NCBI GenBank assembly: GCA_011049175.1
Contig: DSCJ01000087.1
Coordinates: forward strand, 1 to 49,147
Origin: Bacteroidota bacterium
GTDB lineage: Bacteria > Bacteroidota > Bacteroidia > Bacteroidales > VadinHA17
Reading direction: 5' to 3'
Length of the DNA stretch: 49,147 nucleotides
The translations under genes were made by a program, and so were the position numbers. Position 1 is the first letter of the stretch; each line of letters opens with the position of its first letter. The notes beneath the pieces are model-generated. The model did no database searches, had not been told where the DNA came from, and saw only the letters and a list, made by a program, of their open reading frames with translations. This document shows positions 21,565 to 48,237 of the stretch, in pieces.

Positions 21565-22794
21565 ATGGGCAAGAAGAAAAACGCGGAAATTTTTTACAGT
21601 ACGTTCAAACGCTTCTTTTACGGTAAGACTTCTGAAGCAAAGAATGAACAGGTCAGGGAATGGTTGAACCATCCCGCCAATAAGTTCCGGACAGATCTCT
21701 TTTTAAGGATGCTTTGGGATGAAATACAAGAAAATCCCCATGATGAGTCCTTTAATCAGGAAGCCCTGCTTGAAAAAATTCATTATACCATAAAAGAAAA
21801 AAGGGGAAAAACAGAGTACGAACCGTATTCCCATGAGACCTCAATTATTTCTACAGGAAAGATTTACAGACAGTTGGCAAGGGTGGCTGCTATTTTATTA
21901 TTGCCAGTCATGATGTATCTCGCCTGGGAAGTGTTTAGCCAGAGAATGTGGCTGGAAAGTCAGAAGGAAATCGTTTATAATGAGATTGTATGTCCGTTAG
22001 GGGCCAGGTGCCATTTTGAATTACCTGATGGAACAAGAGTAAGCCTGAACAATGGCAGTCGACTGAAATATCCCGTAAAATTTCAAGGAGATATCAGGAA
22101 AGTTGAATTAGCCGGTGAGGCTTTCTTTGATGTAAAGAAGAATACAAAACGACCCTTTATCATCGAAACCCATGGGCTGGATGTAAAAGTGACAGGGACC
22201 CGGTTGAATGTATTTTCTTATCCCGGGGACGAATACCAGGAATTTACGCTTGAATGTGGAACAATTGAGCTGTTAAAGAAAGAAGGTAATCGGCAAGTTT
22301 CTATAGCGGCAATGAAATCCGGACAACATGCGGTTTACAATCTTAAAGAAGCTCAGATGGATGTGAAGCAGGATAAAAAAGATAAAAAACTCACTGAAAA
22401 GGCAACCGAGTTAGAAGAATTAGGAGCAATGGTTTCGAAAATGAAACCGGATGAGCGGGTTGTTTATGAAACAGATGAAGGTATAGTAGAATTTGAGTAT
22501 AAAGAAGATATTGATAAATATACCTCATGGAAGGAAGGAAAACTGGTATTACGCAATGATCCCATGCCTATACTTTTAAAAAGAATTGAACGCTGGTATC
22601 ATGTTAAATTTAATATAGTGGATGAGGGGATAAATGAATACTCCTATTGGGCTACTTTTGAACAGGAAAACCTTAATCGGGTTTTGGACCTATTATCCCT
22701 CACCGGCCCTATCAAATTCGTTAAACACCCAATAAAGAAAGAGGCAGATGGTTCCTATAAGCCCCAGGTTATTGATGTGATGCTAAAAAAATAG
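21565..22794 (+). CDS. FecR-type anti-sigma factor
   Basis: Inner-membrane regulator that holds an ECF sigma factor until signalled by an STN-bearing TonB-dependent receptor. The 409 residues comprise a cytoplasmic N-terminal region (about 1-100), one transmembrane helix (about 106-124, VAAILLLPVMMYLAWEVF), the periplasmic FecR domain (LPDGTRVSLNNGSRLKYP near 151-168, then AGEAFFDV) and a C-terminal DUF4974 domain (about 325-409). A Lys/Glu-rich insertion (about 270-310, DKKDKKLTEK) separates the last two. It sits 203 bp upstream of an STN-type susC, the standard pairing. The usual sigma gene directly upstream is missing here; an ECF sigma gene lies 24 kb away at 47106. Confidence 0.92.
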   Translation: MGKKKNAEIFYSTFKRFFYGKTSEAKNEQVREWLNHPANKFRTDLFLRMLWDEIQENPHDESFNQEALLEKIHYTIKEKRGKTEYEPYSHETSIISTGKIYRQLARVAAILLLPVMMYLAWEVFSQRMWLESQKEIVYNEIVCPLGARCHFELPDGTRVSLNNGSRLKYPVKFQGDIRKVELAGEAFFDVKKNTKRPFIIETHGLDVKVTGTRLNVFSYPGDEYQEFTLECGTIELLKKEGNRQVSIAAMKSGQHAVYNLKEAQMDVKQDKKDKKLTEKATELEELGAMVSKMKPDERVVYETDEGIVEFEYKEDIDKYTSWKEGKLVLRNDPMPILLKRIERWYHVKFNIVDEGINEYSYWATFEQENLNRVLDLLSLTGPIKFVKHPIKKEADGSYKPQVIDVMLKK

Positions 22795-22870: not shown

Positions 22871-22933
22871 ATGCCTATGAAACAAAAAAAACAGGAAAGT
22901 GCGGCCACACTTTCCTGTATAATCCAGCATTAA
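22871..22933 (+). other. Possible 20-codon upstream ORF in the susC leader
   Basis: ATG at 22871 opens a 20-codon frame ending TAA at 22931-22933 and spanning the stem-loop at 22891-22918. It has no ribosome-binding site. It may be chance, since the frame simply reads through the hairpin arms; a leader peptide is possible. Confidence 0.2.
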
Positions 22934-22984
22934 ACCTTTTACCCTGAAATTTTGAGCCACAGGGATATTTTGTTTAACACTACA
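22884..22984 (-). ncRNA. Putative DonS-like antisense RNA to the susC leader
   Basis: The spacer between fecR and susC encodes, on the minus strand, a promoter (22991-23021) and about 70-100 bp later a strong intrinsic terminator (22891-22918 followed by eight U). The predicted RNA of about 100 nt is fully complementary to the susC 5' leader. Known precedent: DonS and related small antisense RNAs lie between the anti-sigma and susC genes of ECF-controlled glycan loci in Bacteroides fragilis and repress susC. Position, strand and size all fit; transcription itself is inferred. Confidence 0.6.
22891..22918 (-). terminator. Intrinsic terminator of the predicted antisense RNA
   Basis: Perfect 11-bp stem with arms ACAGGAAAGTG and CACTTTCCTGT and a 6-base loop. 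On the plus strand it is preceded by eight A and not followed by T. So it terminates only leftward transcription, yet the nearest minus-strand protein gene is far away (beyond 25 kb to the right there is none). On the plus-strand mRNA it would be a leader hairpin. Confidence 0.75.
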
Positions 22985-22990
22985 ATCTTA

Positions 22991-23021
22991 CAAGATTATG
23001 AAAAAACTTTATGATTTGCAA
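22991..23021 (-). promoter_or_regulatory. Predicted minus-strand promoter of the antisense RNA
   Basis: Minus strand reads TTG (23021-23019), 20 bp spacer, TAATCTTG (22998-22991). This fits the Bacteroidota sigma consensus TTG - 19 to 21 bp - TAnnTTTG with one mismatch. It overlaps the first codons of susC, so start would be near 22984. Confidence 0.5.
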
Positions 23022-26000
23022 GAAACAGTACCACCGTTATGCTGCTTTCAAAAAATTAACCGTATTATGAGACTAACCGCTTTTTTGCTTTTGGTTTCTG
23101 TATTCCAGGTTATAGCAACCGAGAATTATGCACAGAACACAAAGCTAAACCTTAATATGGGTGAAACCACGGTAGGGCAGGTGCTCCAGGAAATTGAGCA
23201 TCAGAGTGAATTCTATTTTCTGTTTAACCAGAAGCTGGTGGATGTGAATAGAAAGGTGAACGTGAATATAAAAGACAGGAAAATCAGTGAAATACTCTCT
23301 CAGGTTTTTAATGGAACGGAGACTGATTATGTAGTCATTGATCGTCAAATAGTTTTGTCTCCCAAAGAGTATTTGACAGCCATTAAGAGTTTGCAGCCTA
23401 TAACTGTTACCGGAAAAGTAACCGATGCATCGACCGGAGATCCTTTGCCAGGTGTGAACATTGTTGTTCAGGGCACAACCCAAGGCACTACCACGGATAT
23501 GAATGGCAACTATTCCATTCAAGCTCCTTCGGATGGCGTGCTTGTGTTTAATTTCATTGGTTATTCATCTCAAACAGTGCCAATAAACGGAAGAAGTGAA
23601 ATTCATGTTGTTTTGGAGCCAATCGATATCAGTCTGCAAGAAGTGGTAGTTGTTGGGTACGGAACACAAAAGAGAGAAAATTTAACAGGGGCAGTAACTG
23701 ATGTACGTAACGAACGAATGGAAAATAAACCGGTCAGCAGCCTTTCAGCGGCGCTGCAAGGTGAGGCAGCAGGTGTATTTATTGTTAATAGTGGAGGCCC
23801 TGGCCAGGAACCCGTTGTTCGAATCAGGGGAGTGGGCTCCGTTAATTTATCATCCGCTCCCTTATATGTAGTTGATGGAATGCCTGTGGGAAGCATTGAA
23901 GGTCTTGACCCCAATTCCATCCAATCAGTTTCCATACTCAAAGACGCATCATCAGCTGCCATTTATGGTTCCCGTGCTGCCAATGGTGTACTTCTCATCA
24001 CAACAAAAAAGGGAATTCGGGGTGAAGAGATCATTGTCAACGTAGATGCATCCACAGGAATACAGCAAACCTGGAAAACCCTGGATTTAATGAACAGGGA
24101 GCAATATATGGACTTTGCCACCGAGTATTTGACAAACGCCGGGGATCCTTTGCCCGAAAGATTTTCAAATATGAATGACCCAATATACCCGGGAGCAACG
24201 CAAACTTTTGCCGAAACCGACACCGATTGGCAGGATGTATTGTTTCGTACCGCACCTATTTCAAAGTTCAACGTTGATCTTACAGGAGGAACTGAAAAAT
24301 ACCGGTTTTTTACCTCTTATGGTTTCATCGATCAGGATGGAATTATGGTGGGTACCGATTACAAGCGTCACAGTGTAGTGCATAATACCGAATTCAAGAT
24401 TAATGATTTTCTTACTGTTGGAGAAAATATCACTGGTTCTTACGGTATAAGAAACAACGAAAAGGAATCTGGAGGCCGAACTATGATAAAACATATTGTT
24501 AACCAGATCCCTTATATACCCGCTCGTGTTCCCATAGGTACAGAAGGTTATGAACATGGTTATCGAACGACATCACCTGCTGACGATACTGACCCTGAAA
24601 ATCCGTTAAGAATAGCCGAACAAGATATAAGTATGTACAAAAGGGCTAATATTATCAGCAATGCTTATGCCGAAATATCTTTTACCGACTGGTTAACCTT
24701 TAAATCCATTTTCGGCATAGAATATACAGAAGATCGATCCATTACAGACAACCCTATGTATCAAGATGATTACAATAAAAGGGAGTTTCATGAACTGACC
24801 GACAATCGTTTTAAATTCTATTCAAGAATTTTCACAAATCAACTGACATTTAACAAAAGCTTTAATAAGCATGATATCAATGCAGTGGCAGTTGTTGAGC
24901 AACAAATCACTGAAGGTCGCAGACTCATAGGCAGAGGAGATCACACAACCAATCTGCTGAATCAACTGGATGGTACGCAAAGTCAATCAGTTTCCGGAAA
25001 TCTAAATGAAACAGCGCTTATTTCCTATGCGGGAAGAATTAACTATTCTTACGCTGATAAATACTTGTTAAGTGCTTCTTTCCGGAGAGACGGTTCGTCA
25101 AAATTTGCACCAGGGAACAAATGGGGTGACTTCCCCGGAGCTTCCATAGGATGGGTATTAAGCGAAGAAAGCTTTATGCAGGATGTCGATTTTATATCGA
25201 ACCTTAAACTCAGGGCAAGTTACGGAAAGGTTGGAAATAATAACCTTGGACCATACGACTGGCAATCCACTATTGCAATGAACACCTGGGCAGTTTTTAA
25301 TAACAATGCAGAAAATAACCAAGGCGCATATTTTGGAAAGCTCCCAAATGAAGAGCTGGAGTGGGAGATTACCACGATGAAAAACGTTGGTCTTGATTTA
25401 TCCTTACTGGATTATTCTGTTACCTTTTCTGCTGAATACTTCAAAAGAGAAGTTGATAACCTACTTATAGAAAGACCACTGCCACCGTCGCTTGGATACT
25501 CTCAAAATCCCTGGTCGAATGTAGGTGCCATGGAGAACTCGGGACTTGAATTCGATGCCGGATATCACAAGCGCGAAGGCGAATTCAAGTTTTCTGTGAA
25601 TGCCAACCTTGGAACCATTAAGAACGAAGTAACAGACTTGAACGGTAGAATAATGGATAGATCGGCTGTAACAGGAGACTATGGCGGAGGTACCATCACC
25701 CGGACGCAAGAGGGACAACCCATTCAAGGTTTTTATGGTTACGTGGTCGAAGGCATTTTCCAGTCAGAAAGTGAAATTGATGCATTAAATCAAATTGCAG
25801 AACAGGCATTTATTGCAGGAAATGTTGCTCAACAGTATTACCAAAACGAATTTACCTCACCCGGGGATATTAAATTTAAGGATATTAATGGTGACGGGAT
25901 TATTAACGAAGATGACCGCATTGTAATCGGCAATTATTTGCCTGATTTCACCTATGGTTTGAGTTTCTCGGGATCATACAAAAACTTTGAGGTTTCGATG

Positions 26001-26450
26001 CAGGTACAGGGTGTATATGGCAATGAGATCTACTGCGGAACAAAAGTCCTGACTCAGGGTATGATGCGACTGTTTAATATGGATGAAGCTGTTTTGGATG
26101 CGTGGACTCCGGAAAATACAAACACCAATATCCCCCGTGCAATAAATGCTGACCCCAATAACAACGCCCGCACATCTGACCGGTTCGTTGAAGACGGATC
26201 GTACATGAGGATTAAGAACCTCACCATCGGTTACAATTTTCCCAACAATCTTCTATCCGGCATATCCGGTAACTCTATCAAGGGACTTAAGCTATATTTT
26301 ACAGCACAAAACCTACTGACCTTAACCGATTACTATGGGTATGATCCGGAAATTGCTTCACGAGGTGGTAACACACTACTTCATGGTGCCGACTTTGGAC
26401 AATATCCTCAGCCACGTACATTAATATTTGGAGTTAAGGCAACTTTCTAA
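22998..26450 (+). CDS. susC: SusC-like TonB-dependent transporter with STN signalling domain
   Basis: Outer-membrane importer of oligosaccharides, the barrel of the SusCD pair. The 1150 residues comprise a signal region (hydrophobic about 24-46, ending NYAQ), an STN domain (about 48-125) that signals to FecR, a carboxypeptidase-regulatory beta domain (about 136-215), the TonB-box/plug start with VVVVGYGTQ (about 219-227), the plug (DGMPVGSIEGLDPN...SSAAIYGSRAANGV), a 22-strand barrel and terminal Phe (GVKATF). The presence of STN places it in the ECF sigma/anti-sigma class and matches the FecR just upstream. Xylan-related ligand is inferred from the enzymes downstream. The ATG at 22998 is followed by a second ATG at codon 24, but the longer form is typical of this class. 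Confidence 0.95.
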   Translation: MKKLYDLQETVPPLCCFQKINRIMRLTAFLLLVSVFQVIATENYAQNTKLNLNMGETTVGQVLQEIEHQSEFYFLFNQKLVDVNRKVNVNIKDRKISEILSQVFNGTETDYVVIDRQIVLSPKEYLTAIKSLQPITVTGKVTDASTGDPLPGVNIVVQGTTQGTTTDMNGNYSIQAPSDGVLVFNFIGYSSQTVPINGRSEIHVVLEPIDISLQEVVVVGYGTQKRENLTGAVTDVRNERMENKPVSSLSAALQGEAAGVFIVNSGGPGQEPVVRIRGVGSVNLSSAPLYVVDGMPVGSIEGLDPNSIQSVSILKDASSAAIYGSRAANGVLLITTKKGIRGEEIIVNVDASTGIQQTWKTLDLMNREQYMDFATEYLTNAGDPLPERFSNMNDPIYPGATQTFAETDTDWQDVLFRTAPISKFNVDLTGGTEKYRFFTSYGFIDQDGIMVGTDYKRHSVVHNTEFKINDFLTVGENITGSYGIRNNEKESGGRTMIKHIVNQIPYIPARVPIGTEGYEHGYRTTSPADDTDPENPLRIAEQDISMYKRANIISNAYAEISFTDWLTFKSIFGIEYTEDRSITDNPMYQDDYNKREFHELTDNRFKFYSRIFTNQLTFNKSFNKHDINAVAVVEQQITEGRRLIGRGDHTTNLLNQLDGTQSQSVSGNLNETALISYAGRINYSYADKYLLSASFRRDGSSKFAPGNKWGDFPGASIGWVLSEESFMQDVDFISNLKLRASYGKVGNNNLGPYDWQSTIAMNTWAVFNNNAENNQGAYFGKLPNEELEWEITTMKNVGLDLSLLDYSVTFSAEYFKREVDNLLIERPLPPSLGYSQNPWSNVGAMENSGLEFDAGYHKREGEFKFSVNANLGTIKNEVTDLNGRIMDRSAVTGDYGGGTITRTQEGQPIQGFYGYVVEGIFQSESEIDALNQIAEQAFIAGNVAQQYYQNEFTSPGDIKFKDINGDGIINEDDRIVIGNYLPDFTYGLSFSGSYKNFEVSMQVQGVYGNEIYCGTKVLTQGMMRLFNMDEAVLDAWTPENTNTNIPRAINADPNNNARTSDRFVEDGSYMRIKNLTIGYNFPNNLLSGISGNSIKGLKLYFTAQNLLTLTDYYGYDPEIASRGGNTLLHGADFGQYPQPRTLIFGVKATF

Positions 26451-26480: not shown

Positions 26481-27974
26481 ATGAAACGAATATATATTAT
26501 ATCCATTCTAATTGCTGGTTTATTGGTTTCATCATGCGATGAAGAAATCCTTAATAAAACTAGTCCTAACGGGTTTACCACCAGCTCGTATTATCAAAAT
26601 AAAGAACATTTAGAGTCTGCTACTAACGCAATTTATGCTAACTTCAACGGAGCGAACCTTTTTGGACGGATGATGAAATATTTATGTGCCTGTCGTTCTG
26701 ATGAACATGCATCAGGCGGCCCTCAGCTGGAAGTTCATAACGCCCAGCTGCTGAATGGCACGTACGATAACACAATCTACACCATAACAGGACCCTGGGA
26801 AGGATTGTACCGGACCATTCACCGCGCCAATTCTGTTATAGAGTTCGGACCGGCTATTGAAGATCCTACACTGAATCCTGACATAAAGGCGCACCGTATA
26901 GCAGAAGCAAAATTTCTGAGGGCATTTTGTTACTATTACCTCGTAGCTTTCTGGGGAGAAGTACCACTTTATACTGAAACTGTTAAATCACCGGAAGGGG
27001 AAAAAGCCCCTGCATCGGAATCTGAGATTTATACGCTTCTCGAAACCGACTTAGGCGATATTATCCCCGTTTTGAATGTTACACATGATGATGCAAATCT
27101 TGGCCGGGCAACCAAAGGAGCAGCCCAATTATTACTTGCCAGGGTTTTAATGCATCAGGGGAAATATGATGAAGCACGCACTATTCTGCTCGACGTCTAT
27201 GATGGACCATACGAACTGGTTGATAATTATGCGCATAATTTCCAGGAAGAAACTGAATACAACGAGGAGTCCATATTCGAGATAGGGTTTACCGGAACCA
27301 ATTTTAACTGGTGGGCTGATGGTAACGGGACCTCGGCCGCAGATAAAGGTCATGTAATGTTCCAGGATGTAAGCCCGACAGGGTGGAGAAACTTAGTCCC
27401 TTCAGACAAACTTTTAAATGATTTTGAGAGCATATCCAAAGGTGATGCAAAAGACGACCCCCGGTTAAGCGAAACAGTGATATTTGAAGGCGATACCTAC
27501 GGGCCTAACGGCGAGTATACTTTGACTGAGTCAGCATACGGTTGGTATAAATATTCCCCTATGTATAAATTAAATCCAGGTGGATACTATATATCAACGA
27601 TAAACTACAGAAACATGCGTTATGCCGAGGTGCTCATTAAACTGGCTGAATGTGAGAATGAGGTTGGTACGCCAGGGGCTGCCATTGGTTACTTGAATGA
27701 AATCAGGAGCCGGCCAAGTGTGGATATGCCGGATTATCCGACAACCAATTATCCTTGCGATTCAAAAGACGAAATTTACAGAGCTATAATGCATGAATCG
27801 CTGGTTGAGTTTTCAAATGAACTTTTCAGAGCTGTTGAATTGGCTCGTTGGAGGAAAAATGGCAAGTTCTCTGCTCTCAATCCGGAGCCTATTGAATATA
27901 TCGCTAATAACCCCAACAGAGCTTTGTTACCTATTCCAAGCACAGAAGTAAGTAACAACTCTGAAATTGATTAA
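26481..27974 (+). CDS. susD: SusD-like glycan-binding lipoprotein
   Basis: Surface lipoprotein that caps the SusC barrel and binds the oligosaccharide. The 497 residues have lipobox LVSSC (Cys19). The N-terminal SusD fold is clear (SPNGFTTSSYYQNKEHLESATNAIY split over two motifs; GPWEGLYRTIHRAN; AEAKFLRAFCYYYLVAFWGEVPLY), as is the C-terminal RagB/SusD domain (NYRNMRYAEVLIKLAECENE; EFSNELFRAVELARWRKNG). It starts 30 bp after susC, the invariant pairing. A hairpin follows 46 bp after its stop and may set the mRNA 3' end of the highly expressed susCD part. Confidence 0.95.
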   Translation: MKRIYIISILIAGLLVSSCDEEILNKTSPNGFTTSSYYQNKEHLESATNAIYANFNGANLFGRMMKYLCACRSDEHASGGPQLEVHNAQLLNGTYDNTIYTITGPWEGLYRTIHRANSVIEFGPAIEDPTLNPDIKAHRIAEAKFLRAFCYYYLVAFWGEVPLYTETVKSPEGEKAPASESEIYTLLETDLGDIIPVLNVTHDDANLGRATKGAAQLLLARVLMHQGKYDEARTILLDVYDGPYELVDNYAHNFQEETEYNEESIFEIGFTGTNFNWWADGNGTSAADKGHVMFQDVSPTGWRNLVPSDKLLNDFESISKGDAKDDPRLSETVIFEGDTYGPNGEYTLTESAYGWYKYSPMYKLNPGGYYISTINYRNMRYAEVLIKLAECENEVGTPGAAIGYLNEIRSRPSVDMPDYPTTNYPCDSKDEIYRAIMHESLVEFSNELFRAVELARWRKNGKFSALNPEPIEYIANNPNRALLPIPSTEVSNNSEID

Positions 27975-28020: not shown

Positions 28021-28054
28021 AAAGAGGCTGCCTCTAAACAGAGACAGCCTCTTT
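28021..28054 (+). terminator. Strong stem-loop after susD, poor T-run
   Basis: A 15-bp stem with one mismatch (28021-28035 with 28040-28054, loop AAAC) beginning 46 bp after the susD stop. Only three T close the stem and the following bases are GCCTGAA. It is thus a weak terminator, more likely an attenuating or mRNA-stabilising 3' structure that lowers downstream enzyme expression relative to susCD. Confidence 0.5.
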
Positions 28055-28654: not shown

Positions 28655-31881
<3,227 letters not shown>

Positions 31882-31924
31882 ACATAATCAGTCAATTCAG
31901 CAATAACAAACTAAAACACACAAA

Positions 31925-34462
31925 ATGACTTTCAAAATTATTAATCTGCGGAAAATCCTGTTGATATTTCTATTCGCTACAACTAGCATTCTTTCGTTTG
32001 GACAAAAACTACAACTCAACGAAAAAGAGTATTTTGAAACCACCGGGTTAAATGTACTGGTGTTCAACAATGAATACAACGGAATGTTCTTCGATGAAAA
32101 AACCGCTGGCATCGAACTGATACATCATGGTGTAAGAACATCTACCGGTGGAGCCGTCAGACTTCAAAACACGCCTGAACAATGGGATTTAATCCCTGCT
32201 CTGGTAAACAAGACGGTTGATAAAAACAACAACAGCATTGAATTCACTTTACGGTATGATGCTTATGATTTTAATCCAAATATCACAGTGACCCCGAAGG
32301 ACGATGGTTTTCAGATAGCCGTATCACTGGACCAACCCCTTCCGGATGAATTAGAAGGAAAAGCTGGCTTCAACCTGGAATTTTTACCTTCTGCATACTT
32401 CGAAAAGAGCTACCTTGCAGACGGCAAACCGGCAAACTTTCCGCTTTACCCGTCAGGTAATACAACCATCAAGCCAAGAAAAAACAAGATACCCCAGTAT
32501 GCAGGACACAGCACTTTTGACGACCGTGGGCTTGAAGAATACATCGACCCCGACCCATTGGCCAAAGGACACACCCTGGTTTTGGCTCCCGAAGATCCGG
32601 AAAGATATGTAAAGATTGAATCTACATCGGAGATAATGCTTTTTGATGGTCGAAGTCTCGCTCAAAACGGATGGTTTATTGTCCGCAGTATATTGCCGCC
32701 CAACCAAACCGGTGAAGTTCTTAACTGGTATGTGGAACCAAAAACAATTGAAAACTGGGTACGCGAACCAAACATCGGTTTTTCCCAGGCCGGATACCAC
32801 CCCGATCAAAAGAAAGTGGCCGTTATTGAACTCGACCAAAATGATACCCCACTAATACATGCTTCCATATATGAAGTAACTGAATCAGGAGAGAAAGTAA
32901 AACACCTGACTGTTGACGTAGAAGAATGGGGAAAATATTTACGATACAATTACCTGAAAGCGGATTTCACTTCTGTCAAAAAACCGGGATTGTACTGCAT
33001 CGAATATGGAAATCAAACAACCAATACATTCTCCATTGACAATAATGCTCTGGCAGATGTATGGCATCCAACGTTAGATGTCTTTCTGCCTGTGCAAATG
33101 GATCACATGAAAGTAAACGAAGCCTATCGTACCTGGCATGGAGAACCCTTTAAGGACGATGCCTTGCAGGCTCCTGTAAACATCGAATTTTTTGATGGTT
33201 ACAGTATGGACTCGGTTACCGACACAAAGTATAAACCACTGGAGCGCATACCAGGCCTGGCCGTTGGTGGCTGGTTTGATGCCGGCGATTATGATATCCA
33301 AACCGGCACGCACTGCCGTACCATACAAAGCCTGGTGGATTCATGGGAGTACTTCAAAGTGAACAGAGACCAGACTTTTATTGACCAGGAAACCCGATAT
33401 GTGGATATTCACCGCCCCGATGGCGATCCGGATATTCTTCAGCAAATTGAACATGGCACACTGAACCTGGTGGCACAGATTGAAAATATCGGGCATCCTG
33501 TAAGAGGAATTATTGTTCCCAATCTGCATCAATACCATCATCTGGGTGATGCTTCCACCGAAACCGACAATTTGCCATACAATCCGAGCCTCGGCCTTTA
33601 CGAAACGGATGGAACAAGTTCCGGAACATTAGATGACAGATGGGCTTTTACCAACCGTAACCACATGCTTGATTTTTCAACCGTAGCGGCTCTCGCCGCA
33701 GCCAACAGGGCGTTAAAAGAATACAACAGCGAACTGGCAGCAAGATGTCTCCGCCTGGCGAAAAACCTGTATGCAGAAGCTACTGAAATAATAAAAAATG
33801 CAAAGCCAAACAGGTTTTCACAATGGGGGCACTTCAGTGAAATATCTGCAGTATTACAGTTATATATTGCAACGGGAGAAAAAGTTTATGCAGACCGTTA
33901 TGAAGAAATCATCTGGCCCGCTTTGGATGAATCATCAGAATGGACGCTTTCAATGGCCTTGCAGGCGATTCCTCACATGGATGAAGACTTTAAAGAGCAA
34001 CTTGAAAAATACGTAGTTAAACACAAATCAGAGATCACCGAATTAGAAGCTGAAAATCCTTATGGAGTCCCGATCTCCACAAGAGGATGGGCCGGAAACT
34101 CAGGTGTCATCGATTGGGCAATCACCAACTACTTGGCATACAAAGCCTTTCCCGAAATCATTGAAAAGGAAGATGTTTACAAAGGATTGAATTACTTGTT
34201 TGGATGCCACCCTTATTCCAACATCTCGTTTGTATCAGCCGTTGGCACCCGGTCAAAAAAGGTCGCTTATGGAAGCAACAGGGCAGATTTTAGCTTTATT
34301 GCAGGCGGCGTGGTACCGGGAGTATTGATATTAAATCCTGATTTCCCCGAAAACAAGGAAGACTGGCCGTTTTTATGGGGAGAAAACGAGTATGTGATAA
34401 ATATTGGAGCAGCCTATATTTATCTGGCCAATGCAGTTAATGATTTGTTAAGCGAAAAATAA
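31925..34462 (+). CDS. GH9 family glycoside hydrolase with N-terminal extension
   Basis: Inverting endo- or exo-acting glycoside hydrolase; GH9 is mostly cellulase but also includes glucosidases and xyloglucan- or mixed-linkage-active enzymes. The 845 residues contain a signal peptide (about 1-26), an unassigned beta-rich region of about 240 residues, a CelD_N-type Ig domain (about 275-370; GFSQAGYHP, KPGLYCIEYG) and the (alpha/alpha)6 catalytic domain. Catalytic Asp452 and Asp455 lie in GGWFDAGDYD, followed by a GCHPYSNISFV segment and general acid Glu822 in ENEYV near the end. It starts 43 bp after the CE1 gene. Its substrate in an otherwise xylan-type locus is unclear; it might be the backbone-cleaving enzyme or act on contaminating beta-glucan. 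Confidence 0.88.
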   Translation: MTFKIINLRKILLIFLFATTSILSFGQKLQLNEKEYFETTGLNVLVFNNEYNGMFFDEKTAGIELIHHGVRTSTGGAVRLQNTPEQWDLIPALVNKTVDKNNNSIEFTLRYDAYDFNPNITVTPKDDGFQIAVSLDQPLPDELEGKAGFNLEFLPSAYFEKSYLADGKPANFPLYPSGNTTIKPRKNKIPQYAGHSTFDDRGLEEYIDPDPLAKGHTLVLAPEDPERYVKIESTSEIMLFDGRSLAQNGWFIVRSILPPNQTGEVLNWYVEPKTIENWVREPNIGFSQAGYHPDQKKVAVIELDQNDTPLIHASIYEVTESGEKVKHLTVDVEEWGKYLRYNYLKADFTSVKKPGLYCIEYGNQTTNTFSIDNNALADVWHPTLDVFLPVQMDHMKVNEAYRTWHGEPFKDDALQAPVNIEFFDGYSMDSVTDTKYKPLERIPGLAVGGWFDAGDYDIQTGTHCRTIQSLVDSWEYFKVNRDQTFIDQETRYVDIHRPDGDPDILQQIEHGTLNLVAQIENIGHPVRGIIVPNLHQYHHLGDASTETDNLPYNPSLGLYETDGTSSGTLDDRWAFTNRNHMLDFSTVAALAAANRALKEYNSELAARCLRLAKNLYAEATEIIKNAKPNRFSQWGHFSEISAVLQLYIATGEKVYADRYEEIIWPALDESSEWTLSMALQAIPHMDEDFKEQLEKYVVKHKSEITELEAENPYGVPISTRGWAGNSGVIDWAITNYLAYKAFPEIIEKEDVYKGLNYLFGCHPYSNISFVSAVGTRSKKVAYGSNRADFSFIAGGVVPGVLILNPDFPENKEDWPFLWGENEYVINIGAAYIYLANAVNDLLSEK

Positions 34463-34486
34463 CTATAAACTATTAACAGAAAGGCT

Positions 34487-35998
34487 ATGAGACTTTTTAA
34501 AAATATTTGCTTTTACACTTTGGTATTATGTTTGGTTTCAGGCAACCTTACTGCACAGGAAATCGCATTAATAAAAATTGATCCCGACCGCAAAATTGAC
34601 ACCATTGACCCGAATATCTACGGGGCGTTTGTTGAGCCGATCCGAACGGTGGTATATGGAAATATCTACGATCCCGATTCCCCATTTGCTGATGAAAATG
34701 GCTTCAGGAAAGACTTCATTGACCTCATAAAAGAGTTGAATATTCGTAATGTCCGCTGGCCAGGAGGAAACTTCGTTTCCGGCTATAACTGGGAGGATGG
34801 CATCGGGCCGAAAGACCAGCGTCCCGCCAAACTCGATCTGGCATGGAATCAAATTGAAACCAACCAGATGGGAACCGACGAATATGCCAAATTCTGTAGT
34901 CTGATCGGCGCCGATAATTTTTTGTGTATCAATGGAGGAACAGGCACGCTTGACGATGCCCGCAACTGGGTGGAATACTGCAACTATGAAAAAGGAACAT
35001 TCTACTCTGATTTGCGAAGAAAATATGGCAATGAAGAACCTTTTAATGTGAAATACGTGGGGCTGGGAAATGAAATAGACGGTCCCTGGCAAATGGGACA
35101 AAAATCGGCAGAAGATTATTGCAAATTTGCACTGGAAGCCGGAAAACTTATTGCGCTTATCGATGAAGACATTAAGCTTGTTGCTTCTGGTGCTTCATTA
35201 TACCGCCCCGGAAACGAGTGGGTCGATTGGAATGAATACGTTCTGGATAAAATGGTGGGCAAAATTGATTACATCTCGGTACACCGATATGCCACCGAAG
35301 CCCTCCCCGGGGGCAGAGAAAACAATGTATTTTCCGACCGTATGTCACTTGGTCTGGATATCGATGAAAAAATAGAAACCACACACGCACTCATTAAAAA
35401 AGCAATGGTAAAATCCGAGTCCGATCGCCCGGTTTACATCTCTTTTGATGAGTATTCGCCCGGTTTTGGAGGAATGGCCAGTTCACTTTTGTTAGCTCAA
35501 CACCTGAACTCATTTATCAGACATGCCGATATTGTAAAAATGGCCAACATCACCATGATTACAAATCTGACAGGACATTCTCCTGAAGGTGTTTTTAAAA
35601 ATTCCCTGTTCCATACCTTTCATCTCTATTCCAACAATGCGATTGGTACCGCGCTGGATATTTATACTGACGGACCATCTTATGACAATGAGATATTCAA
35701 CAATATCCCCTATCTGGATGTAACAGCAATTTTTAATGAATCGGAAAAGAAAGTAATCCTCAATGTGGTAAACAGGCACGAGACAGAAGCGATAGAGACA
35801 AAAATCGATTTACAGGCCGGCAAATACACAGGCAAAGCTACTGTCAACGTAATTAATGCCGAAAATCCGAATGCCAGAAATACCATTGATGAATCGCCTG
35901 TTTCAGTCGAAACCGATCAACTTAACTTTAAGGGAAACGTTATCAAACATACTTTTCCTGCGCATTCATTTACTCAAATCGAAATCCCGGTGAAATAA
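34487..35998 (+). CDS. GH51 alpha-L-arabinofuranosidase
   Basis: Retaining exo-enzyme that removes arabinofuranose side groups from arabinoxylan or arabinan. The 503-residue protein has a signal peptide (about 1-24, LTAQ), NIYGAFVEP, RWPGGNF near residue 90, acid/base Glu196 in GLGNEIDGPW and nucleophile Glu322 in SFDEYSP. The C-terminal beta domain follows the barrel. It starts 24 bp after the GH9 stop and ends 17 bp before the GH3 start, so it lies deep in one operon. Export fits a periplasmic step after SusCD import. An endoglucanase activity known for few GH51 members is less likely given the neighbours. Confidence 0.93.
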   Translation: MRLFKNICFYTLVLCLVSGNLTAQEIALIKIDPDRKIDTIDPNIYGAFVEPIRTVVYGNIYDPDSPFADENGFRKDFIDLIKELNIRNVRWPGGNFVSGYNWEDGIGPKDQRPAKLDLAWNQIETNQMGTDEYAKFCSLIGADNFLCINGGTGTLDDARNWVEYCNYEKGTFYSDLRRKYGNEEPFNVKYVGLGNEIDGPWQMGQKSAEDYCKFALEAGKLIALIDEDIKLVASGASLYRPGNEWVDWNEYVLDKMVGKIDYISVHRYATEALPGGRENNVFSDRMSLGLDIDEKIETTHALIKKAMVKSESDRPVYISFDEYSPGFGGMASSLLLAQHLNSFIRHADIVKMANITMITNLTGHSPEGVFKNSLFHTFHLYSNNAIGTALDIYTDGPSYDNEIFNNIPYLDVTAIFNESEKKVILNVVNRHETEAIETKIDLQAGKYTGKATVNVINAENPNARNTIDESPVSVETDQLNFKGNVIKHTFPAHSFTQIEIPVK

Positions 35999-36015
35999 TC
36001 TTTTACATTTCTGTC

Positions 36016-39000
36016 ATGCAACGAACAAAAGCAAAACGGTTTGTTTTAACCATTGTCATTGTTTCCATTATGGCTTTCATCCCCGGCGGGGAACATAGTA
36101 AAAAGCCAATATACCTGAACACCGCCTATTCATTTGAAGAGAGGGCGGCTGACCTGGTTTCGCGGATGACCCCCGAAGAAAAACAAAGCCAGTTTGGCAA
36201 CACCATGCCTGCAATCCCACGATTGGGAATCAACTCATATAATTTCTGGGGTGAGGCGCTGCACGGAATTATGGGCCGTAACAACAACAGCGGAATGACG
36301 GCCACATCATTTCCCAATAGTGTAGCGGCAGGCTCTACCTGGGATCCTGAATTAATTAAACGGGAAGCTAAAGTCATTTCGGATGAAGCCCGCGGGTTTA
36401 ATCATGATTTGATTTTTACGCTCACTTACTGGTCACCGGTTATTGAACCGGCCAGGGATCCACGCTGGGGCAGGACTGCTGAAACATTTGGAGAAGATCC
36501 GTTTCTGGTTTCTGAAATAGGGAAAGGATTTATACAGGGAATGATGGGTGATGATTCCCGCTACCTGAAAACGGTCCCCTGTGGAAAGCATTACCTGGCC
36601 AACAATACCGAGTTCAATCGTCATTCCGGAAGTTCTGAACTGGATCAAAGGGATATGTATGAATATTACCTGTTGCCCTACCGCACACTCATTCGCGATT
36701 ACAACCTCCCTTCTATTATGACCGCCTACAATGCAGTAAACGGGATTCCGGTGTCAGCCAGTAAATTTCTGGTCGATACCCTTGCCCGTAAAATATATGG
36801 TCTTGATGGATACGTTACCAGCGATTGTGGTGCAATTGATGACATTGTAAGAGGACATCATTATGCCGAAAATTACACACAGGCCGCTGCAATGGGCATT
36901 AGAGCAGGTGTGGATATCGACTGTGGAAGTGTTTATCAAAACCATGCGTTTAAAGCATTGGAAGAGGGCTTAATTACTCAGGGTGAAATGGATAAGGCCC
37001 TGATTAACATTTTTACTATCAGAATGCGAATCGGCGAATTTGACCCCAAAGGCATGGTTCCTTACGCCGGCATCAAACCCAACAAAGTAAATGATCCTTC
37101 GCACCATGACCTGGCCATTGAAATGGCAACAAAGACACCTGTTCTGCTAAAAAACAATAAGATGGTAAAATCAGGAAATAACGTGTTGCCTATTGATCTA
37201 TCCCAAATCACGAAAATAGCCGTTTTAGGCCCTCAGGCCGATTTGGTAGAACTGGGAGATTATTCAGGTCCGGTCGAGCCCGATTTGAGAATCACTCCGT
37301 TGGACGGAATACAAAATTATATGAAAGAACATAACCTGAAAACAGAAGTTGTCTCAAAATCTGTAGGTAACACTTCTAAAAAGACAGACTTCTTTACCAT
37401 TTCCGGCTTTTCAACCGTCACCACTGACGGCCGCATACAAAAATTTAATGCAACCAAATTTGATAAATCAGCCAAAGGTTTGATTACTGCTGAACGTTTT
37501 GGACAAACGACTGTAAGAGGCATAAAAGATGGTGACTGGACTTTGTATGAAAATATTGACATTACTGATGTGGATTCCATCCGCTTCAACATGACCATTG
37601 CCGAAGATGGTGGTATACTGGAGGTTCGCGTTGGATCTGCAACCGGAAATGTTCTGGCATCTCAGGAAATAGTATCCACAAACAAGGAAAATAACAATTC
37701 ATGGCTCAGACGCCCCGAAACCATCCCGGTTAAAATAAACACCCTGGGAATCACTGGCCCCCAAACACTGGTGCTCGTATACCATGAACCGGAGCCCGAC
37801 GGCACCGACCAGGAAACACTGGATATGGCCGCTTCTGCTGATGTGGCTTTGGTATTTGTAGGAACCGACCAATCCACCGGAAGAGAAGAATCGGATCGTT
37901 TCTCTATCACACTTCCCGGTAATCAGAACGGGCTTATTAAGGACGTGGCAGATGTCAATCCCAATACCATCGTAGTAATGCAAACCATGGGTATGGTAGA
38001 AGTTGAAGAGTTTAAAAGCCATCCCAATATAAAAGGTATTATCTGGACAGGGTATAACGGCCAGGCACAGGGAACTGCAATGGCAAAAATCCTTTTTGGT
38101 GATGTCAATCCCGGAGGAAAACTCAATGTTACCTGGCATAAGTCACTCAACGATTTGCCTGATTTTAACGATTATTCCCTGAGAAAGGGAAAAGAAAATA
38201 ATGGCAGAACTTATTGGTATTTCGATGGGGATGTATCTTATGAATTTGGTTATGGGCTATCGTACACCACATTTGAGTACAGTAATTTTTCCATAAGCCA
38301 GACCGAAATTACACCCAACGATAAAATTACCGTGAGTGTTGATGTAAAAAACACCGGACAGTTTGATGGGGATGAAGTCGTTCAGGTTTATGTAAAAACA
38401 CCGGACAGCCCGGCTTCTCTCCAAAGACCCATCAAGAGATTAAAAGGCTTCAAAAGAGTCACCATTCCTAAAGGCCAGGTAAAAAGAGTTCATATTGATA
38501 TCGACTGTGAAGACCTTTGGTTTTGGGATGCAGAGAATGATCACATCACTTTTGACCAGGGGAAATACATTTTTGAAATTGGCACTTCTTCACGAGACAT
38601 CAAAGGTAAGATAGAAGCAACCATGCAAGGCAGGTATAAACCCGAACTCGTCAATGTTGTGGCCGAAAGCGATAAAGTTGTTCTGAAGCCGGGTAACGTA
38701 ATCCAAACCTGCGTAACTGCTGCAATGACCGATGACAGCTTTTATGACATCAACAAAGCCAATGTAACATACAGAAGCAATAATCCGGCAGTGGTTAGTG
38801 TTGACCAACACGGTGAAGTTACAGCAACCGGTGTGGGTGTTGCATCTGTATTTGCATATGTTACGATTGATGGTAAAACGGTTTCAGACAGTTATCCGGT
38901 GAAGGTGATGCCCGATTTGACACCAAAATCAATTTCCGTAAATGGAAAAACCATTCCGGAATTTGACAAAGAGGTGAAAGCCTACAGTTACCTGCTTAAA

Positions 39001-39834
39001 AAAGGTTCAAAAGCACCAAAAGTAGGGGCAACAGCCGTTAGTGATCAAATCAGGGTAGATATTCAACAAGCAAAAGGTGTTCCCGGAACTTCCGTGGTTA
39101 CTTTCGTGGATAACATTACACTGGAGAAAAACACTTATTACGTGAATTTTGATGTAAAATCAGTCAGTGATGAATTTAATGGCTCTGAGATTGGCTCGCA
39201 ATGGGAATGGTTGCGGGAAAACCCATCAACCCACAGCCTATCAAAGAAAAAAGGAGCTCTTACCCTCACCAGTGAACCAGGTGGCGTATCGGAAAACACC
39301 AACAATGCAAAAAACATCCTGCTTCAAAGTGCCAATTCCGACTGGACTATTGAAACAAAACTGGTGGGGTCAAGAATGCCTTCTCAGCCCGAAAATGCGG
39401 GAATTATTGTTTATCAGGATGACGATAACTTCATTAAACTGGTGCACAGGGCCGTCATTAAAACCACGCGTGTAAAGGACCCCCAACCGGGAACCATCGA
39501 CCTGGTGATGGAAGAAAACGGTATTTCCAGATCAATGGCCTCTATTAAACTCGAAGAACCTGTAACCGACGGAAATGAGCTGGTTCTTAAGTTGACAAAA
39601 AAGGGAAGCATCTACACCGCTTACTATTCTGTTTATAACGGTGAAAACTTTGTAAAATTGGGTACAGTCGACCTCCTGCTTAAAGATATTAAAGCAGGAT
39701 TGATGGTGGCAGACGGAATAATTGCCAATTACATGAAAAGTACTTTCTGGTTTGATTCCGACACCACAAAACCGGATTCGCCTTTTGATGTTTCGTTCGA
39801 TTACTTCCGCATCGAGAACAGCGGCATAGAGTAA
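36016..39834 (+). CDS. GH3 beta-xylosidase-type enzyme with inserted CBM6-like module and C-terminal Big2 and lectin-like domains
   Basis: Retaining exo-beta-glycosidase, probably beta-xylosidase. The 1272 residues comprise a signal segment (about 8-24), the GH3 N-terminal barrel with nucleophile Asp270 in TSDCGA and the PCGKHY substrate-binding stretch, and the GH3 C-terminal alpha/beta domain. That domain is split by a CBM6-like beta-sandwich (about 455-595; ITAERF, DGDWTLYENID, GILEVRVGS). An FnIII-like domain follows (about 750-870), then a Big_2-type Ig domain (about 895-975), a linker domain, and a concanavalin-like module (about 1055-1272, EFNGSEIGSQWEW to FDYFRIE) like the C-terminal domain of GH43 xylosidases. 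It is much longer than usual GH3 enzymes (about 750-900 aa). A decayed copy of its first about 180 residues lies at 46400. Confidence 0.9.
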   Translation: MQRTKAKRFVLTIVIVSIMAFIPGGEHSKKPIYLNTAYSFEERAADLVSRMTPEEKQSQFGNTMPAIPRLGINSYNFWGEALHGIMGRNNNSGMTATSFPNSVAAGSTWDPELIKREAKVISDEARGFNHDLIFTLTYWSPVIEPARDPRWGRTAETFGEDPFLVSEIGKGFIQGMMGDDSRYLKTVPCGKHYLANNTEFNRHSGSSELDQRDMYEYYLLPYRTLIRDYNLPSIMTAYNAVNGIPVSASKFLVDTLARKIYGLDGYVTSDCGAIDDIVRGHHYAENYTQAAAMGIRAGVDIDCGSVYQNHAFKALEEGLITQGEMDKALINIFTIRMRIGEFDPKGMVPYAGIKPNKVNDPSHHDLAIEMATKTPVLLKNNKMVKSGNNVLPIDLSQITKIAVLGPQADLVELGDYSGPVEPDLRITPLDGIQNYMKEHNLKTEVVSKSVGNTSKKTDFFTISGFSTVTTDGRIQKFNATKFDKSAKGLITAERFGQTTVRGIKDGDWTLYENIDITDVDSIRFNMTIAEDGGILEVRVGSATGNVLASQEIVSTNKENNNSWLRRPETIPVKINTLGITGPQTLVLVYHEPEPDGTDQETLDMAASADVALVFVGTDQSTGREESDRFSITLPGNQNGLIKDVADVNPNTIVVMQTMGMVEVEEFKSHPNIKGIIWTGYNGQAQGTAMAKILFGDVNPGGKLNVTWHKSLNDLPDFNDYSLRKGKENNGRTYWYFDGDVSYEFGYGLSYTTFEYSNFSISQTEITPNDKITVSVDVKNTGQFDGDEVVQVYVKTPDSPASLQRPIKRLKGFKRVTIPKGQVKRVHIDIDCEDLWFWDAENDHITFDQGKYIFEIGTSSRDIKGKIEATMQGRYKPELVNVVAESDKVVLKPGNVIQTCVTAAMTDDSFYDINKANVTYRSNNPAVVSVDQHGEVTATGVGVASVFAYVTIDGKTVSDSYPVKVMPDLTPKSISVNGKTIPEFDKEVKAYSYLLKKGSKAPKVGATAVSDQIRVDIQQAKGVPGTSVVTFVDNITLEKNTYYVNFDVKSVSDEFNGSEIGSQWEWLRENPSTHSLSKKKGALTLTSEPGGVSENTNNAKNILLQSANSDWTIETKLVGSRMPSQPENAGIIVYQDDDNFIKLVHRAVIKTTRVKDPQPGTIDLVMEENGISRSMASIKLEEPVTDGNELVLKLTKKGSIYTAYYSVYNGENFVKLGTVDLLLKDIKAGLMVADGIIANYMKSTFWFDSDTTKPDSPFDVSFDYFRIENSGIE

Positions 39835-39907
39835 TTTGAAGCGGATACCCTGTACAATAGAATGTTAGATTTTAGATATAAGATGTACTTATTTACTAAC
39901 CAAATAA

Positions 39908-42199
<2,292 letters not shown>

Positions 42200-42264
42200 G
42201 AAAATCTGTTGATATCCGAAAGAAGGAAATTCTATGAATCACAGAATCTTATTTTTTTACAAGT

Positions 42265-42369
42265 ATGGGTTATCGATTCGGCTTATATAACTATTCAACC
42301 AAAACCGCCGGCGGATATGTTGATTTCGATTATTTCCGTATAAACAATGAGATTTCAGAATCATACTAA
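42265..42369 (+). pseudogene. C-terminal scar of a GH43-type concanavalin-like domain
   Basis: A 34-codon frame ends with GLYNYSTKTAGGYVDFDYFRI and then TAA. That is the characteristic final strand pair of the C2/concanavalin-like domain of GH43 xylosidases, also similar to the end of the GH3 at 36016. Nothing upstream (42200-42264) continues the domain, so the rest of the gene has been deleted. The remaining part of 42200-42540 shows no gene and no clear promoter. Confidence 0.65.
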
Positions 42370-42540
42370 AATACTTATTGAAGATCCCGGAATGGATTGA
42401 GGGCTGGTATCCTATCCGGTTCATTCTGTTATTCCCAGCGTAGGCTTATCCTTAAGGTAATCTTATGACAATAACCGTGGGTAATAATGATCTTAAAAAA
42501 TTGACAATGCAAAAAAATATTTGAAGGAATCATTTTAATT

Positions 42541-45033
42541 ATGAGCAATCTCAGGTTATACTTACTTATTGTTATTTTTTTAATTTTTCAGCTGACGTCT
42601 TTCAAAAGCAAAGCCCAACCAGGAGAAAGGCTTAAAATGTGGTACGATAAACCGGCAAAAGTATGGAACGAAGCTCTTCCAATTGGAAACGGGCGGTTGG
42701 GAGCAATGGTTTATGGGGATCCGGTTAATGAGAAAATCCAGATCAATGAGGAGACATTCTGGTCGGGAGGTCCATCGCGTAATGACAATCCGGATGCCCG
42801 AAGGGTTCTGCCTGAAGTCCGGCAGTTGATTTTCAAAGAAAAATACAAAGAAGCCGAAAAGCTGATCAACCAAAACATGGTGGCCGAACAATTACATGGA
42901 TCAATGTATCAAACAATTGGCAACCTGAACTTGTCTTTTCCTGATCATAAAAATTATACCAGTTATTACAGGGAACTCGATTTAAAAAGAGCCTTGTTTA
43001 CTACTACCTATACAGTTAATGGTATTGATTACAAACGTGAAGTCTTTGCTTCAAAACCCGATCAGCTGATTGTTGCCAGACTTACTGCCAGTGAACCGGG
43101 AAAGCTTTCATTTACAGTCGGAATGAACGGGCCTTTACAAATAAAGACCCAAGCCCTGGATGCAAATACTCTTGAAATGACCGGAATTTCCATTACACAT
43201 GAAGGGGTTCCCGGCCAGGTAAAATTTCATGCCCGGGCAAAAATTATCAATTCCGGCGGTTCTACTGCTATTGAAGCCAATAAGATTAGGATTCGTCATG
43301 CCGACGAGGTAGTTATCAGGATCTCGATAGCAACTAACTTTGTTAATTACAAAAGCCTGGCTGCTGATGAAACCAAAAAGTGTCTGAATTATCTAACGGC
43401 TGCTGAATCAAAATCGTATCGGGATCTTTTATGCGACCACATAGCTTCTTATCAGAAATATTTTAACCGGGTCAGTTTGGATTTGGGAACAACACCGGCA
43501 GTTGACGATCCAACTGACGTCAGGGTTAAAAAGTTTTCAGAAAGAAATGATCCGGCCCTGGTTTCTCTCTATTATCAATTTGGCCGCTATTTGTTAATAT
43601 CCAGTTCCCAACCGGGAGGACAACCTGCCAATTTGCAGGGCATCTGGAATGGAAGTACCCATCCGGCATGGGATAGCAAATATACCCTGAATATTAACAC
43701 CGAAATGAATTACTGGCCGGCCGAAAAATGTAATCTCCCCGAAATGCATCAACCCCTTATTCAGATGGTTATGGAACTTTCAGAAGAAGGCCGGCAAACT
43801 GCCCAAACCATGTATGGATGCGATGGCTGGGTAACCCATCACAATACGGATATTTGGCGGATCTGTGGCGTTATTGACGGCGCTTTTTGGGGTATGTGGC
43901 CCATGGGCGGAGCCTGGCTTTCACAACATTTGTGGGAAAAATATCTGTATAACGGCGATTTGGATTATCTGGCTTCTGTTTATCCTGTGCTGAAATCAGC
44001 ATGTAAGTTTTACCAGGATTTTCTTGTCGAAGAACCCGAGCATGGCTGGCTGGTAGTAAGTCCGTCCATTTCACCCGAAAACGCTCCCGCGGCTCATTCT
44101 ACTTCGGTATGTGCAGGAGCTACAATGGATCATCAGATTCTTTTCGACTTGTTTTCAAAAACCATAACAGCCGCTTCTTTACTGAAAAAAGACAGCGCCC
44201 TGAGGGTGGATTTTCAAAAGATCCTTGACCGGCTTCCGCCCATGCAGATTGGCCGTTTTGGCCAGTTGCAGGAATGGATGAAAGATTGGGATGACCCGAA
44301 TGATACACATCGGCATGTTTCCCATTTATATGGGTTAATGCCCAGTAATCAGATCTCTCCTTATACCTCTCCCAAATTGTTTGATGCAGCACGTACATCG
44401 CTTATGCATAGAGGCGATGTTTCAACAGGCTGGTCAATGGGATGGAAAGTGAATTTATGGGCACGTTTGCTGGATGGAAACCACGCGCTAAAACTTATAT
44501 CCGATCAGTTAAGCCTGGTAGATCCTGAAAATCCAGGAAATAAGGGGGGGACCTATCCCAATCTTCTGGATGCCCATCCTCCTTTCCAGATTGATGGGAA
44601 TTTCGGATGTACATCAGGAATTACCGAGATGCTTATGCAAACTCATACCGGGGCCATTCATCTTTTACCGGCATTGCCACACAAATGGAAGAGCGGCAAT
44701 ATAAGCGGATTGCGTGCTTATGGCGGTTTTGAGGTCAGTTTTAGCTGGGGAAACAACACTATAAAAATAATAAAGATCAAGTCAATGCTCGGTGGGAATT
44801 GCCGGATTCGGTTACCTAATCAAGTATCTTTAAAAGGCAATGGAAAACTCAGTAGTGCTTCAGGGGTCAATCCAAACCCGTTTTTTCAAACCCCGAAAAT
44901 TAAAGACCCGATCATATCAGATTCTACCTCTTTAAACAAGGTTAAACCTCCCACCACCTTTTTGTATGATTTGCAAACAAAGCCTGGTAAAACCTATACT
45001 ATTATCAATGAAAAAAACCATCATAATGAGTAA
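42541..45033 (+). CDS. GH95 alpha-L-fucosidase/alpha-L-galactosidase
   Basis: Inverting exo-enzyme removing a terminal alpha-L-sugar. The 830 residues contain a signal peptide (about 1-25, SKAQ), an N-terminal beta-sandwich (WNEALPIGNGRLGAMVYG), the (alpha/alpha)6 domain with NIN (384-386) in NINTEMNYWP, acid Glu513 in SPSISPEN and an HRHVSHLYGL segment, and a C-terminal beta domain. The residue two before the first Asn is Thr382, where fucosidases carry His. As I recall, Thr there marks alpha-L-galactosidases such as BACOVA_03438, which works on complex glucuronoarabinoxylan. Neighbours support the galactosidase reading. The gene overlaps the GH43 gene at its 3' end. The C-terminal about 50 residues are low-complexity Lys/Pro/Ser-rich. 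Confidence 0.9.
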   Translation: MSNLRLYLLIVIFLIFQLTSFKSKAQPGERLKMWYDKPAKVWNEALPIGNGRLGAMVYGDPVNEKIQINEETFWSGGPSRNDNPDARRVLPEVRQLIFKEKYKEAEKLINQNMVAEQLHGSMYQTIGNLNLSFPDHKNYTSYYRELDLKRALFTTTYTVNGIDYKREVFASKPDQLIVARLTASEPGKLSFTVGMNGPLQIKTQALDANTLEMTGISITHEGVPGQVKFHARAKIINSGGSTAIEANKIRIRHADEVVIRISIATNFVNYKSLAADETKKCLNYLTAAESKSYRDLLCDHIASYQKYFNRVSLDLGTTPAVDDPTDVRVKKFSERNDPALVSLYYQFGRYLLISSSQPGGQPANLQGIWNGSTHPAWDSKYTLNINTEMNYWPAEKCNLPEMHQPLIQMVMELSEEGRQTAQTMYGCDGWVTHHNTDIWRICGVIDGAFWGMWPMGGAWLSQHLWEKYLYNGDLDYLASVYPVLKSACKFYQDFLVEEPEHGWLVVSPSISPENAPAAHSTSVCAGATMDHQILFDLFSKTITAASLLKKDSALRVDFQKILDRLPPMQIGRFGQLQEWMKDWDDPNDTHRHVSHLYGLMPSNQISPYTSPKLFDAARTSLMHRGDVSTGWSMGWKVNLWARLLDGNHALKLISDQLSLVDPENPGNKGGTYPNLLDAHPPFQIDGNFGCTSGITEMLMQTHTGAIHLLPALPHKWKSGNISGLRAYGGFEVSFSWGNNTIKIIKIKSMLGGNCRIRLPNQVSLKGNGKLSSASGVNPNPFFQTPKIKDPIISDSTSLNKVKPPTTFLYDLQTKPGKTYTIINEKNHHNE

Positions 45034-46979: not shown

Positions 46980-47105
46980 CGATTTTTCTTTCTTAGTATG
47001 ATAGTATTGATATTTTCATTATTATTTCTTACTATTGTAACTGTACGGTATAAAGGTGGGTATTTATTGTTCCAACCAAACCACTAAGAAGGAGTGATCC
47101 ACAGA

Positions 47106-47681: not shown

Positions 47682-48237
47682 ATTTTCCCTATAAAAAGTA
47701 CCTGCACAATCTCGGAGCGAAGAACTACCAGAGAATGCACAAACCAAAATAGATATTCCGGAGAGTCCGGAGTTTATCAAAGAAGGTCACAATGTCATAC
47801 TGGCAGGCAACCCCGGAACAGGCAAGACCCATTTATCTATAGGGCTGGGCAAAAAAGCATGTATGGAAGATTACAGGTTGTTTTTTACCACCATACCCCG
47901 TTTAATTACCCAAATACGCGAAAGCAGATCGCAAAAAAAACTGCGAATCCTGGGAAGCCGGTTTGAAAAAATTGATCTGGTTATATGTGATGAATCTGGC
48001 TACCTAATCTTTTAACAAAGGGGAGCAGAGATGCTGTTCAGCCATCTCTCGCTGAGGGCAGGAAGAAAATCAACCATCATTACCACAAATCTGTTTTTCG
48101 ATCGGTGGAGTGAAATTTTTGGAGACCTTGTTCTGACTGCTGCCATGGTGGATAGATTAACACATAAAGCGCACATTGTCAATATGAACGGAATGTCTTA
48201 TTGTGCATTGGAAACAAAAAAATGGATGAACAGTTGA
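47682..48237 (+). pseudogene. istB: Decayed IS21-family IstB helper ATPase
   Basis: Pieces of an IstB/DnaC-type ATPase in order: DFPYKKYLHNL from the N-terminal linker, a frameshift near 47750, then GHNVILAGNPGTGKTHLSIGLG (Walker A within NPGTGKTH). Next are TTIPRLITQIRESRS, LVICDESGYL (Walker B), an in-frame TAA at 48013-48015, SLRAGRKSTIITTN and LTAAMVDRLTHKAHIVNMNG. The first about 100 residues, the istA transposase gene and terminal inverted repeats are not visible. The remnant begins directly at the sigma-factor stop, so it probably inserted into or deleted what followed the sigma gene. Confidence 0.88.

Follow-up and report, generated by a model that had tools for sequence, protein, structure and literature searches.

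A predicted DonS-type antisense RNA between fecR and susC, with an anatomy recurring at related FecR-SusC junctions

In a 49,147-nucleotide stretch of a Bacteroidota genome (Bacteroidales, VadinHA17; contig DSCJ01000087.1 of assembly GCA_011049175.1), called the window here, the spacer between the anti-sigma factor gene fecR and susC holds a hairpin that ends in a U-run only when it is read on the strand opposite to both genes. What is such a structure for? The sequence-only reading had proposed that it terminates an antisense RNA like those of the DonS class, the PUL-associated cis-antisense RNAs of Bacteroides reportedly described by Cao in 2016, and had observed that no minus-strand protein gene is near enough to need it; our search for such genes of at least 120 amino acids adjoining the spacer likewise found none. 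The features on which the argument turns are these:

21565–22794, plus strand: fecR, encoding the anti-sigma factor; the sole FecR_C match in the genome.
22873–22879, plus strand: GCCTATG element of the sense leader; recurs in relatives.
22877–22933, plus strand: 18-codon upstream ORF that begins in GCCTATG and extends through the hairpin; usually 1–9 codons in relatives.
22884–22987, minus strand: predicted antisense RNA of about 104 nt with two stem-loops, from an inferred start, the U-run as its end, and its fold.
22884–22891, minus strand: terminator U-run (an A-run on the plus strand), supported by the asymmetry of A and T counts in relatives.
22891–22918, minus strand: terminator hairpin of 11 Watson-Crick pairs and one G-U pair, with a loop of 4; kept in relatives.
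22922–22984, minus strand: 5' stem-loop of the predicted antisense RNA, from the fold here and z-scores in 136 relatives.
22991–22998, minus strand: -7 box TAATCTTG (consensus TAnnTTTG) over the susC start codon, from relatives compared with controls.
22998–26450, plus strand: susC with STN domain (TIGR04056), the presumed target.
23019–23021, minus strand: TTG, a doubtful proposed -33 box; present here, not enriched in relatives.
26481–27974, plus strand: susD.
28655–46372, plus strand: xylan-type enzymes (GH8, esterases, GH9, arabinofuranosidase, GH3, GH95, GH43).
47094–47681, plus strand: ECF sigma factor gene, 24 kb from fecR.

As in known FecR/ECF-sigma control of SusCD systems, fecR is followed here by an STN-type susC; the differences are the predicted antisense RNA unit added in the spacer and the distance of 24 kb between the sigma factor gene and fecR. 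The genome has 33 SusC matches and one FecR_C protein, and so a single locus of the ECF/FecR type. The ECF factor encoded at 47094–47681 is 54% identical to the one beside the closest fecR relative, where FecR identity is 53%, and it is probably the partner of this FecR, although it lies at the far end of the locus instead of beside fecR. Directly downstream of it, at 47695–48234, is the remnant of an IstB (IS21) ATPase gene with an in-frame stop, which may be related to this rearrangement. A separate observation concerns the susD-GH8 spacer, where a strong 15-pair hairpin (28021–28054), terminator-like in the minus-strand scan, probably serves processing or partial termination after susCD.

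From 22918 to 22884 the minus strand of the fecR-susC spacer reads ACAGGAAAGTGTGGCCGCACTTTCCTGT and then the U-run. The hairpin can be written ACAGGAAAGTG-U-GGCC-G-CACUUUCCUGU, with 11 Watson-Crick pairs and one U-G pair, and is followed by seven unpaired U (22884–22890), or eight if the paired one is counted; the plus-strand reading has no U-run. The perfect 11-bp hairpin with eight U, on the minus strand only, that had been described before is therefore there, with one G-U pair more. Upstream on the same strand, TAATCTTG at 22998–22991 departs from TAnnTTTG by one mismatch (C for T) where most relatives are exact, and covers the A of the susC ATG, as the proposed overlap of promoter and susC start had it; a TTG lies 20 bp further upstream (23021–23019). 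An Rfam scan of the site returned 0 matches above the gathering score. Because a generic count of terminators over 15 kb was no better than in shuffled sequence (16 versus 15.9), the terminator at this single site is by itself little proof, and it was homologous spacers that supplied it.

When the spacer was compared by BLAST with 60 relatives, what matched, apart from the spacer itself, was mostly the hairpin, beside fecR of other genera and families. The relatives' spacers follow a fixed order: the fecR stop codon, GCCTATG, an A-run with the hairpin, and then CAAANNTATG at the susC start, the last being the reverse complement of CATANNTTTG and so an exact TAnnTTTG -7 box on the minus strand. 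We assembled an order set of about 130 junctions, made up of FecR_C junctions gathered irrespective of hairpins and of junctions from closer relatives, five of which were brought in by hairpin similarity; since several junctions may come from one genome, its counts are not fully independent. Among the spacers of 60–450 nt, 51 of 103 carry a minus-strand terminator, where dinucleotide shuffles average 0.2, and one of 103 a plus-strand terminator, where they give 0.04; the called hairpins are picked by score, and some will be false. The flanks are lopsided too, with 6.2 A in nine positions on the 5' side and 2.4 T in nine on the 3' side (75 junctions, P 8e-13). Of the 63 terminator-bearing junctions, 48 have CAAANNTATG exactly and 60 have it with at most one mismatch, counts that are raised slightly by moving the start codon to an in-frame ATG with a box where one lies within 50 codons. 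The controls gave one exact box at 40 susC genes that lack a fecR and come from these genomes, the window's own supplying 12 (start codons by the same rule), and three at 200 other genes, taken at their most upstream ATG, one of the three apparently itself a FecR-type susC. At some junctions there is a box and no called terminator, at others a called terminator and no box.

The promoter proposed earlier, TTG-20 bp-TAATCTTG, thus divides into two parts. The -7 box holds up, with its single mismatch here, whereas a TTG at 19–21 bp shows no enrichment among relatives (7 of 71), so that the window's -33 box may be a matter of chance. This agrees with promoter data from Flavobacterium, in which the -7 was found and the -33 was not (PMC7366714). 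Relatives that kept the hairpin and lost U-run and promoter had been named as the finding that would speak against an antisense RNA; for the most part the comparison went the other way, with hairpin, U-run and -7 box all kept in dozens of families, and the -33, which is not conserved, as the exception.

A hairpin can pair on either strand, and the question becomes which one carries the structure. Non-Watson-Crick stem pairs are informative, as such a pair can be G-U on one strand only. In the order set, imperfect pairs are G-U on the minus strand 84 times and on the plus strand 24 times (P 5e-9), a ratio that is conservative because the stems were picked by a score that favours plus-strand G-U. 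Among the stems collected across the phylum (below) there are 124 minus-strand and 0 plus-strand G-U pairs, or 55 to 0 after subtraction of the 69 that the search pattern, with its one G-U per stem, builds in. The 5' half of the predicted RNA, from start site to terminator, was not selected for structure, and it too folds better as the minus strand, with a mean z of -2.5 versus -1.1 for the plus strand in 136 relatives (P 1e-15; the shuffles keep mononucleotides only). For the window's own predicted minus-strand RNA the fold is -35 kcal/mol and z is -5.2. The G-U bias and the better folding of the minus strand together indicate that the structure is kept on an antisense RNA, and on the sequences compared this strand test is the strongest evidence that selection keeps such an RNA and not a hairpin of the sense leader. 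Anatomy, conservation, strand of the structure and the link with FecR can all be read from the DNA directly.

Where would such an RNA begin and end? We placed its start 5 nt after the -7 box, at -11/-12 from the susC ATG, following the position of the sigma A box of Flavobacterium psychrophilum at -12 to -5 (PMC9723704), and its end at the U-run. Column -12 from susC favours C on the plus strand, that is G on the RNA, in relatives (54% in the order set, 53% in the phylum set). The predicted length is 104 nt here and a median of 94 nt in relatives. Such an RNA, running from about 22987 to 22884, would not include susC codons and would be fully complementary to the stretch of susC leader between about -11 and -114.

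The arrangement reaches well beyond the order. A plus-strand hairpin pattern scanned over 84,980 species genomes matched at least 118 stretches, of which 80 loci were read; among the matches listed, about 69 of the 80 are FecR-SusC junctions or have SusC or FecR at a contig end, and the remainder are mostly single hits outside Bacteroidota. The same listed matches come from Flavobacteriia, Chitinophagia, Cytophagia, Sphingobacteriia and Bacteroidia, and from genera that include Flavobacterium, Maribacter, Zobellia, Arenibacter, Chitinophaga, Pedobacter, Dyadobacter, Belliella, Fulvivirga, Draconibacterium, Mariniphaga, Parabacteroides and others. The box is absent from the search pattern, and 38 of their 68 susC starts have it exactly and 65 with no more than one mismatch, counts biased towards the box because the start codon was chosen by likeness to the box and a following A-run. 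A sample of FecR not picked by hairpin has the arrangement in part of the class's genomes; it was not found in that sample's genomes from other classes of the phylum. The 30 junctions of Parabacteroides gordonii alone hold 20 exact boxes and 15 minus-strand terminators. (The FecR_C profile also gives weak matches to many SusC proteins of this species in their N-terminal STN region, which suggests that the FecR_C and STN domains are related.) The sequence-only reading was right to see a xylan-type locus in a different lineage; the arrangement is spread through the class and is not peculiar to this locus.

Three other accounts of these data deserve consideration. The hairpin might be a structure of the sense susC leader, an mRNA stabiliser or a regulator site, with CAAANNT as translation-start context. 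The leader is indeed transcribed with susC and the sense hairpin pairs too, and the co-occurrence of box and terminator is not independent proof of an antisense unit, since both are tied to the same junctions. We nevertheless consider this account improbable: minus-strand G-U outnumbers plus-strand G-U by 84:24 among the imperfect pairs, folding of the 5' half is better on the minus strand, the A-run is at the 5' flank, where the U-tail of a minus-strand RNA has to be, and the box is not the usual context of a susC start, being rare at the 40 susC genes without FecR in the same genomes. Still harder to credit, and to our minds very improbable, is a terminator that merely stops leaky minus-strand transcription through susC, with the -7 box there by chance. 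The window's own box is mismatched and its -33 unsupported, as this account would have it, but terminator-bearing relatives have an exact box in 48 of 63 cases, control genes in three of 200, and the body of the RNA is structured.

The account that comes closest accepts the antisense promoter and dispenses with the RNA: polymerase firing at the susC start codon would block sense transcription, and the transcript would be a by-product. A promoter placed over the susC start codon and directed into the leader is what one would expect, yet collision needs no folding of the RNA body, and strand-specific folding is what has been conserved, so that we regard collision alone as unlikely, if less so than the other two. 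That the folding is conserved speaks for an action of the RNA itself, through pairing and perhaps protein binding, in addition to any polymerase collision.

The reading that we prefer, and hold to be quite probable from the sequence comparisons, is that of a cis-antisense RNA of the DonS type in a SusCD locus under ECF-sigma/FecR control. The RNA would lie opposite the susC 5' end in an ECF/anti-sigma locus and end at an intrinsic terminator; its 104 nt, from inferred ends, fall within the 78–128 nt of the DonS class (PMC7366714). For the housekeeping (sigma ABfr) promoter of the DonS type there is a candidate, whose -7 box has one mismatch here and is exact in most relatives, and whose -33 is not conserved. 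The match in place, strand and length that had been claimed is supported by the spacer position, the terminator, the -7 box and the length of about 104 nt. DonS and the other PUL antisense RNAs of B. fragilis and B. thetaiotaomicron (PMC7366714, PMC10994844) likewise lie on the strand opposite susC, are of similar length, and have an intrinsic terminator and a housekeeping-type -7 box, as predicted here. They belong to loci for mucosal glycans, whereas this locus is for xylan and in other lineages, and its RNA is predicted from DNA; the likeness is one of anatomy, with DonS compared by its description.

We infer transcription, pairing and repression of susC along the following lines. A housekeeping sigma factor would read the minus-strand -7 box over the susC start codon, and an RNA begun near 22987 would cross the susC leader backwards, form two stem-loops and stop at the terminator at 22884. 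As long as the glycan is absent, the RNA would pair with the scarce susC mRNA and prevent its translation or mark it for decay, while polymerase on the antisense promoter would also obstruct sense transcription; once the glycan is present, sense transcription driven by the ECF factor would outpace it. DonS is cited as repressing its own locus (PMC7366714, PMC11697453), and repression is likely here. It is not certain, as among the 32 PUL antisense RNAs that B. thetaiotaomicron expresses some are anticorrelated and some correlated with susC (PMC10994844).

The FopS sRNAs of Bacteroidaceae (PMC11697453) are likewise complementary to susC start regions and control SusC post-transcriptionally. They are trans-acting and multicopy, whereas the RNA predicted here is cis-encoded and single-copy, the spacer matching only itself in its own genome. 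The FopS seed holds the complement of the start codon (CAT), while the RNA here would start after its promoter, with a 5' end near 22987, 11 nt before the ATG. A FopS target site was also considered as the cause of CAAANNTATG and rejected, since the published seed complements ...TAATACTATG and not CAAANNTATG (PMC11697453). Set beside minus strand 22970–23010, the published seed makes FopS sRNAs resemble trans-acting copies of the strand opposite the susC start, and they may have arisen from such antisense loci.

The leaders hold a further conserved part. Fifty-three of 140 leaders have an exact GCCTATG, upstream of the hairpin by about 39 nt in the median, where 0.5% would be expected per leader; it is present in 2 of 40 susC leaders without fecR and at 6 of 34 junctions without a called terminator. 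In frame with its ATG the median distance to a stop is one codon, where the other frames give 13 and 18, and the mini-ORF is closed before the hairpin in 49 of 53 cases, versus 24 and 22. The peptide sequence is not conserved; the position of the in-frame stop is. The leaders of P. gordonii, an independent sample, encode M*, MK*, ME*, MT*, MV* and similar peptides, none longer than five residues. A fixed DNA motif is disfavoured as the explanation, because leaders in which the stop comes at neither of the first two codons nevertheless reach one sooner in frame (median 3 versus 17 and 17 codons), which favours an ORF. GCCTATG thus appears to open a genuine start-stop mini-ORF; the window departs from these leaders in that its ORF runs for 18 codons through the hairpin. 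Our guess is that the mini-ORF holds a ribosome in the leader. That mini-ORF and antisense unit form a class-wide composite leader, jointly setting susC output in ECF/FecR loci, is a tentative proposal to which we give slightly less than even chances; the ribosome held at the mini-ORF might, for instance, compete with the antisense RNA for the leader. In the literature that we found, a layer of mini-ORF and antisense RNA is not described for ECF/FecR switches.

Antisense RNAs opposite susC were known before from two Bacteroides species, and for one the function had been tested. With the anatomy conserved in soil, marine and gut species, a susC antisense RNA is probably a standard part of ECF/FecR nutrient switches across the class, and the same leaders have in the start-stop mini-ORF a second conserved part. 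The U-tailed hairpin and CAAANNTATG offer marks by which such RNAs can be annotated from DNA alone, and the shut-off of ECF/FecR loci becomes testable in many cultured strains.
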